Assembly (NCBI GenBank): GCA_947626125.1
Contig: CANQRA010000008.1
Coordinates: forward strand, 1-37,007
Direction: 5' to 3'
Length of the DNA stretch: 37,007 nucleotides
Origin: an uncultured Bacilli bacterium
GTDB lineage: Bacteria; Bacillota_I; Bacilli_A; RF39; UBA660
Shown here piece by piece: positions 1 through 26,990 of this stretch. Positions within the stretch are counted from its first letter, which is position 1. Every line of letters starts with the position of its first letter. The notes beneath the pieces are model-generated. The model made no database searches, had not been told where the DNA came from, and saw only the letters and a list, made by a program, of their open reading frames with translations. The position numbers and the translations under genes were made by a program.

Positions 1-255
1 AAGATTACAAAATTGCTTATCATTTTGATTATCGGACGGCCTCCCCCCGAATTGCTAATTTTATGCCTTTCATAATCTTATTTCTCTCTTTCTATCTTTA
101 TCTAAATTCTACTATTTTTACCTTCCTTAGTCAAGGGCTTTATGATTATTTTTAACAAGATGGCATTTTACATTTGTTTACAAAAAAAGTCTTTCCAAAA
201 CTCTAGAAATTTGGGCAAAAAACTACAACTTTTTTCTTTTTTTATTCAAAAACTA

Positions 256-284
256 TTTACAAAAATAATTAATATTGCTTTAAT
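256..284 (+). promoter_or_regulatory. Putative sigmaA promoter for the 33-aa peptide transcript (TTTACA-N17-TTTAAT with upstream TG)
   Basis: -35-like TTTACA at 256-261, 17-nt spacer, -10-like TTTAAT at 279-284 preceded by TGC. Confidence 0.4.
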
Positions 285-373
285 AAAGCCTAGGAGGACA
301 AATTTAAGTTGTTGCCTAAAACTTTTTTTGAAGAAACTCAGGTGGGTTTTGGATAGGAAGGTGGTGGGTGCCA

Positions 374-475
374 ATGAATAAGAAGTGTCGTGAAGATATA
401 TTTTTATTTATTGTTTTTATGTTAGTCTTAACTCTGTTAATATTAGTCATAAAAATGGCTAGCCCTTTGAAGTAG
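374..475 (+). CDS. Putative small hydrophobic type I toxin-like peptide (33 aa: MNKKCREDIFLFIVFMLVLTLLILVIKMASPLK)
   Basis: Hand translation. Charged N-terminus, single TM stretch, basic C-terminus; AAGGTGG SD-like sequence about 10 nt upstream; 3' end overlaps an antisense RNA candidate. Too short for the supplied ORF track. Confidence 0.6.
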   Translation: MNKKCREDIFLFIVFMLVLTLLILVIKMASPLK

Positions 476-522
476 CAATGGACTAGCCAGTACACACAGG
501 TAACGCTTAATGCGTTCTCCTA
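445..522 (-). ncRNA. Putative antisense antitoxin RNA (about 75 nt) overlapping the 3' end of the small toxin-like gene
   Basis: Minus-strand promoter TTGTAT (552-557)-N17-TAAAAT (529-534) with extended TGC; 5' hairpin AACGC/GCGTT (502-516); terminal hairpin (457-488) followed by ATTTTT. Confidence 0.5.
451..488 (-). terminator. Intrinsic terminator of the antisense RNA
   Basis: Minus strand GGCTAGTCC-loop-GGGCTAGCC then ATTTTTAT; arms 480-488 and 457-465 with one G-U pair. Confidence 0.6.
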
Positions 523-579
523 TTAATAATTTTAGCATATTAATTTTTATTATACAATTACTTTTTACTATATTTTTTC

Positions 580-26757: not shown

Positions 26758-26990
26758 TCCTCATTAAAAAATTCATAAACAAAAGGACACTTTGACATGT
26801 GGTACCACCTTTATTTATGAATTAATTCACCTCATTTATGGTTAACGCCCAAAAACGAATTATTTTACTAACTTTCAAATAATTAACTCCCAAGTGATAT
26901 AAATTAAATAATATTTATTAGTTTGCACCAACCACTAATTCTCTTTAAACTTTCTTTAATTTACCTGTCTTGTTCTTCGTCTTTAATTTA
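26758..26990 (-). promoter_or_regulatory. T-box leader (Ile) upstream of ileS
   Basis: Minus strand T-box GGTGGTACCACATG...GTCCTTTTG (about 26781-26811) and specifier region TATATCACTTGGGAG containing ATC (Ile). Confidence 0.85.

Follow-up and report, generated by a model that had tools for sequence, protein, structure and literature searches.

A dispersed chromosomal unit in an uncultured gut lineage of Bacilli as a probable type I toxin-antitoxin module with a self-closing toxin mRNA

Positions 1 to 37,007 of contig CANQRA010000008.1 (assembly GCA_947626125.1, an uncultured Bacilli bacterium), analysed here as one window of 37,007 nucleotides (nt), contain at 250-566 a unit of about 320 bp that occurs in several chromosomal copies and is probably a type I toxin-antitoxin module, its family having no match in the libraries searched. 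On sequence evidence two features of a type I system are present: a small hydrophobic peptide gene and an antisense unit overlapping the toxin mRNA. An earlier, sequence-only reading had proposed a convergent module at this place, with a promoter and a 33-residue hydrophobic open reading frame (ORF) on the plus strand and, on the minus strand, a promoter, a 5' hairpin and a U-tailed terminator within the toxin's last codons. All these elements were located where it had put them, and its interpretation is the best supported one, given selection on the peptide, a covarying terminator, a conserved antisense unit and the decay of toxins ahead of antitoxins. The dispersed copies, a 5'-3' foldback of the mRNA, sequestration of its AUG, a hypervariable linker and an upstream palindrome go beyond that reading. 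In the mechanism proposed, the plus strand would yield an mRNA of about 230 nt encoding a single-span membrane peptide of 28-33 residues, and this mRNA would inhibit itself by laying its 5' arm on its 3' end, enclosing its AUG in a hairpin and placing an A/C-rich 3' linker on the ribosome-binding region. The minus strand would yield an RNA of about 75 nt, antisense to the last 75 nt of the mRNA, with its 3' end within the toxin's last codons. Transcription from both promoters, and the toxicity and membrane action of the peptide, are inferred.

About ten copies of the unit are dispersed in the source genome, nine of them as full-length alignments (five at 80-100% and four at 68-71% identity), together with additional partial pieces, and sequence comparison shows that five sister species have four to eight copies each; over all searches, several sister species have 4-10 each. 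Across copies both promoters, the peptide start, the antitoxin 5' hairpin and the terminator are conserved; the peptide and the antisense promoter, whose absence from relatives would have spoken against the sequence-only reading, are thus both retained there. A mechanical promoter scan listed neither promoter and returned no more sites than in shuffled sequence; the unit is lifted above chance because the whole 320 bp recur with their key elements conserved. Searched with the peptide model, 7 of the 38 species of the genus have convincing copies and two others have weak matches, the related records being rabbit-gut metagenome-assembled genomes ('uncultured Bacilli bacterium Lapin-...'). Matches beyond the genus are weak (E 4e-5 at best), and a wider spread was read as chance, the sole inspected match (G538) sitting within a longer frame that contains a stop. 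Judged by these searches, the family is confined to one genus among the genomes covered. Mobile carriage was rejected, as collections of plasmids, phages and viral contigs gave no match to the module.

The window peptide includes a 19-residue segment with a mean hydropathy of 3.1, and the consensus over copies is MxKKxREDILLFIVFILVLALLILIIK followed by zero to six more residues, giving 28-33 amino acids (aa). Close pairs give a ratio of non-synonymous to synonymous change (pN/pS) of 0.27 and the whole set one of 0.42-0.44, compared with 0.71-1.35 for the remaining five frames; by this measure the peptide is under purifying selection specific to its reading frame. The antitoxin's terminator stem also encodes its C-terminal residues, which accounts for their variation; the stop codon lies within the stem in 28-aa versions and beyond it in 33-aa versions. 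No family in Pfam, NCBIfam or PADLOC matches the peptide; one PHROG of unknown function does so weakly (E 0.26). Rfam gave only a hit to SpF66, below threshold (18.7 bits, cut-off 42). The remark of the sequence-only reading that the peptide resembles none of the established membrane toxins therefore holds against Pfam, NCBIfam, PADLOC and Rfam. An upstream ORF (LDRKVVGANE) that overlaps the start of the toxin gene was rejected as a conserved gene, its frame varying among copies.

The mRNA begins with some 25 nt that complement its own 3' end. When this helix was examined in 26 distinct copies, with 500 shuffles and with slid registers as a control, 92.5% of cells were paired, compared with 37-66% in the slid registers; changes on both sides affected five pairs and 23 cells, where shuffles gave 2.5 and 6.6 and 0 of 500 reached the observed values. 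Wobbles read on the sense strand comprise 61 G.U and 6 A.C, an excess indicating that it is the mRNA, and neither the DNA nor the antisense strand, that is constrained. RNAalifold, run on the full alignment with no structure supplied, recovers the helix as part of a fold with nine covarying pairs, and also gives a helix that joins the AUG to codons 12-14. The window mRNA is predicted to fold at -80.7 kcal/mol (z -7.15 relative to shuffles). In the predicted folds the AUG has a pairing probability of at least 0.89 except in three of the copies listed, and it was not freed by simulated removal of the 3' part, the counterpart of the 3' processing that activates the mRNA in an aapA-like mechanism. 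A leader hairpin, differing in sequence from copy to copy, recurs at its position in the predicted structures of the four copies whose folds were listed.

The antitoxin RNA, about 60-77 nt long across copies, consists of a 5' hairpin, a linker, a terminator hairpin and a U tail, the latter present on the antitoxin strand only. In the terminator helix, six of nine pairs have changed on both sides and 93% of cells are paired; for the whole structure the figures are seven covarying pairs and 95.4% of cells, and the window RNA folds better than shuffles (z -4.5). The mRNA 3' arm is complementary both to the mRNA 5' arm and to the antitoxin 5' hairpin. In effect, then, the antitoxin carries a second copy of the mRNA 5' end, and because of this copying the two would compete for one 3' site.

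The linker between the antitoxin hairpins has, as read on the mRNA, a composition of A 0.47, C 0.28 and G 0.06. Its predicted pairing with the ribosome-binding region was matched by 0 of 200 shuffled and 16 of 200 swapped linkers; co-evolution of linker and ribosome-binding region was rejected as not clearly better than swapping, and only a generic anti-ribosome-binding role is claimed. Among paralogues within a genome, identity reaches 0.94 in the ORF and 0.97 in the 3' arm but just 0.63 in the linker, close to the 0.58 of linkers paired at random. In L035 and L037, and in the tandem pair of L034, ORF and leader are identical and the linkers differ. Diversifying selection for pair specificity is an attractive reading of this pattern, under which a unique single-stranded linker would lead each antitoxin to prefer its own toxin; alternatively, the linker may be under relaxed constraint, with the remainder of the unit homogenised by gene conversion.

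Separate models for peptide and RNA recognise 46 toxins and 57 antitoxins in the genomes. A toxin accompanies 45 of the 57 antitoxins, leaving 12 without one, while a single toxin lacks an antitoxin and is truncated by stops. The solitary antitoxins retain promoter, both hairpins and U tail. Decay that removes the toxin first is the direction expected where loss of the antitoxin harms and loss of the toxin does not. At L164 (G019:C41:7822-7897) the antitoxin RNA is recognised at E 9.5e-9 and the opposite strand has no toxin ORF.

Several observations weigh against interpreting the unit as a toxin-antitoxin module. The copies being related, covariation cells are not independent events; likewise, solitary antitoxins may share ancestry, and 12 of them do not equal 12 independent losses. 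Some copies are degenerate (L071, for instance, has a frameshift), and both promoters are ordinary consensus matches. Complementarity between the antitoxin and the mRNA leader (5' untranslated region, UTR) is not beyond chance, the duplex energy being no better than for shuffled sequence. The simplest action would therefore be a duplex across the mRNA's 3' 75 nt followed by decay through a double-strand RNase, and marking of the mRNA for such decay by an antitoxin bound to its 3' end is, by analogy with other type I systems, the most likely mode of action. Moreover, an antitoxin on the 3' arm could open, not close, the ribosome-binding region, so that repression would have to act via RNA decay or another step.

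The alternative that survives best, although unlikely, is that the peptide is a non-toxic small membrane protein with a function in normal physiology, for example modulating a membrane complex when induced by stress, and is controlled by antisense RNA and foldback. Conservation of the peptide would suit such a role, as would a palindrome shared with clpC (described below), which suggests a stress regulon. Ten near-redundant copies with individualised antitoxins would be odd for a benign protein, however; solitary antitoxins exist whereas solitary intact toxins do not, and mRNA closure, start-codon sequestering and antisense control together amount to the level of control seen for toxic peptides (PMC6733600). 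Much less probable is a selfish, non-coding dispersed repeat resembling a miniature inverted-repeat transposable element, in which inverted ends and ORF would be incidental: the unit is indeed dispersed and multi-copy, with inverted repeats at both ends, yet the selection is specific to one reading frame, covariation is confined to the mRNA strand, partial copies retain the antitoxin unit and not both ends, and neighbour genes common to the same site in several species point to old residence. Equally little weight can be given to the idea that the antisense RNAs are chiefly trans-acting regulators and the peptide secondary; the intact solitary copies would fit it, but pairing prevails among the antitoxins, and the variable linker is matched solely by the cis partner, by construction.

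Table 1. Features of the unit and its upstream region, in window coordinates
Feature	Position	Strand	Basis
Palindrome, consensus AAATCTCTAGAGATTT, 2 mismatches here; putative operator upstream of the toxin promoter	197..212	.	site distribution
Toxin-mRNA promoter TTTACA-N17-TTTAAT, extended -10 (TGC)	256..284	+	sequence; conserved across copies
Toxin promoter boxes, 17-base spacer	TTTACA 256-261; TTTAAT 279-284	+	sequence
mRNA 5' arm, first half (AGGAGGACA), pairs with 513-521	292..300	+	covariation
mRNA 5' arm, second half (TTGTTGCCT), pairs with 498-506	309..317	+	covariation
Leader hairpin, immediately 5' of the ribosome-binding region	320..363	+	predicted fold
G/U-rich ribosome-binding region (GGAAGGTGGTGGG)	356..368	+	sequence; mostly paired in predicted folds
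Toxin ORF, 33 aa, MNKKCREDIFLFIVFMLVLTLLILVIKMASPLK; ATG 374, TAG 475	374..475	+	pN/pS, alignment, AUG helix
Predicted antitoxin RNA of about 75 nt, with two hairpins and a U tail	449..524	-	sequence, covariation, RNA model
Antitoxin intrinsic terminator hairpin, overlaps the toxin's last codons; U tail 455-451	456..490	-	covariation
Hypervariable linker: A/C-rich in the mRNA, where it is predicted to pair with the ribosome-binding region; G/U-rich and single-stranded in the antitoxin	490..497	.	pairing and paralogue comparison
Antitoxin 5' hairpin AGGAGAACGC-ATTAA-GCGTTACCT; complement is the mRNA 3' arm	498..521	-	covariation, fold
Antitoxin promoter TTGTAT-N17-TAAAAT, extended -10 (TGC)	529..557	-	sequence; conserved across copies
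Antitoxin promoter boxes, 17-base spacer	TTGTAT 557-552; TGC-TAAAAT 534-529	-	sequence

The palindrome, allowing at most one mismatch to AAATCTCTAGAGATTT, occurs in 7 of 38 species, with 59 forward-strand sites as against 4 for a reversed control. Of the ten sites in the source genome, eight precede a module copy; by our own tally, 33 of 45 in the six species with subfamilies A and B lie upstream of module copies or relics. The palindrome also stands once per genome upstream of the Clp ATPase gene clpC, in six of six species (L183, L186, L187, L190, L191, L196), and precedes genes of the PD-(D/E)XK nuclease family at three sites (L184, L189, L192) and ssb at one (L188). CtsR was rejected as its regulator, the gene being absent from all 38 genomes of the genus. 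A stress operator common to the toxin promoters and clpC, through which the palindrome would regulate both, is a lead offered by this distribution. A fuller picture, in which each genome would hold about ten orthogonal pairs, the antitoxin would mimic the mRNA's 5' arm and compete for the 3' end, a linker of 8-14 nt would diversify as a barcode of each pair within an otherwise conserved unit and the toxin promoters would belong to the clpC stress regulon via the palindromic operator, is possible but, taken as a whole, rather doubtful. In G011 the palindrome occurs in tandem pairs spaced 66 bp (L193, L194); on contig C10 of that genome a gene that looks TetR-like by eye comes before the pair and a reverse-transcriptase-like ORF after it.

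The antitoxin model also matches species having no close peptide, and these loci carry other short peptides at the toxin position, among them MKMKTLVKVLIFIVFVLLYIIVLIIKTNYPFIGVV (G026, G032), MKLRVFDFLKVILFFLRKHKK... (G001, G007), MRVSTQRDILLIINFILTLLLVIVTLKMLTLMD (G011) and MNAKTEKCFLLIIILILSLVILIGKLKDVIH (G022). Complementary 5' and 3' arms are again present, as judged by eye; homology between the peptide groups is not established by their sequences. Upstream of their toxin promoters lies a different dyad, GACAAATGTTGTC or GACAAAACTTGTC (L167, L168, L171, L172, L173, L165, L166), which may mark a second operator type; the clpC upstream regions examined in these species have neither the palindrome nor the species' own GACAA-TTGTC dyad. 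In four sister species a recurrent gene of about 230 aa (MKLIELIKNLFKHHKINTNAELVRP...) adjoins many module copies (L028, L030, L035, L036, L037, L038, L041, L043, L044, L053, L152), and library scans gave no family exceeding its curated cut-off for it. Elsewhere in the window, a T-box leader (26780-26986, minus strand, 110.5 bits) lies directly 5' of a gene that reads as an isoleucyl-tRNA synthetase.

The literature searched yielded no such system for this uncultured gut lineage. The module would add a toxin family without a library match, and its design of RNA control, to a class known from few lineages; its paralogues form a natural experiment on specificity among co-resident antisense pairs, and the palindrome shared with clpC makes it possible to test whether type I toxins are linked to protein-quality stress. 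By the features tested, the module does not seem to belong to the Fst or the aapA family, despite a layout like the former and an mRNA closure like the latter. The antitoxins of BsrG/SR4 and TxpA/RatA in Bacillus subtilis overlap their toxin mRNAs at the 3' end, as would be the case here; the present peptide has no Pfam match. The least probable explanation of all is a divergent member of the Fst/Ldr family, whose convergent promoters, hydrophobic peptide of about 30 aa, antitoxin terminator inside the toxin gene and specificity elements poorly conserved among paralogues (PMC7472228) all have counterparts here, as comparison with par (Fst-RNAII) of Enterococcus pAD1 illustrates. Fst membership was rejected, since the aligned copies lack the PxxxG(C) motif, the Pfam Fst model does not match the peptide at E<=10 and there are no DRa/DRb direct repeats (the longest is 7 nt) to give 5' UTR complementarity; instead, the end repeats are inverted and the mRNA folds back 5' to 3'. 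As regards a bidirectional intrinsic terminator, a trait of that family, the hairpin here has a U tail on the antitoxin strand and no U-run after it in the sense direction. The CD0977.1-RCd11 modules of Clostridioides difficile, convergent, several per genome, with toxins of 34-47 aa and cognate-specific antitoxins (PMC7699646), share orientation and multiplicity with the present ones; theirs have a positively charged C-terminal tail and reside in prophages, while here the charges are N-terminal and nothing in the plasmid, phage or viral collections matches. Finally, aapA/IsoA of Helicobacter pylori is a multi-copy chromosomal type I system with an antisense RNA of about 80 nt and an mRNA of about 225 nt, the latter kept inert by a 5'-3' long-distance interaction and by hairpins in leader and ORF that mask the Shine-Dalgarno sequence (PMC6733600). 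Scans of the peptide with Pfam and NCBIfam gave no AapA match, no direct comparison with the AapA sequence being made. Both systems combine multiple copies, a small antisense RNA and 5'-3' closure of the toxin mRNA; they belong to different phyla, and the antitoxin described here is antisense to the mRNA 3' end, repeats the mRNA's 5' arm and has a variable linker.
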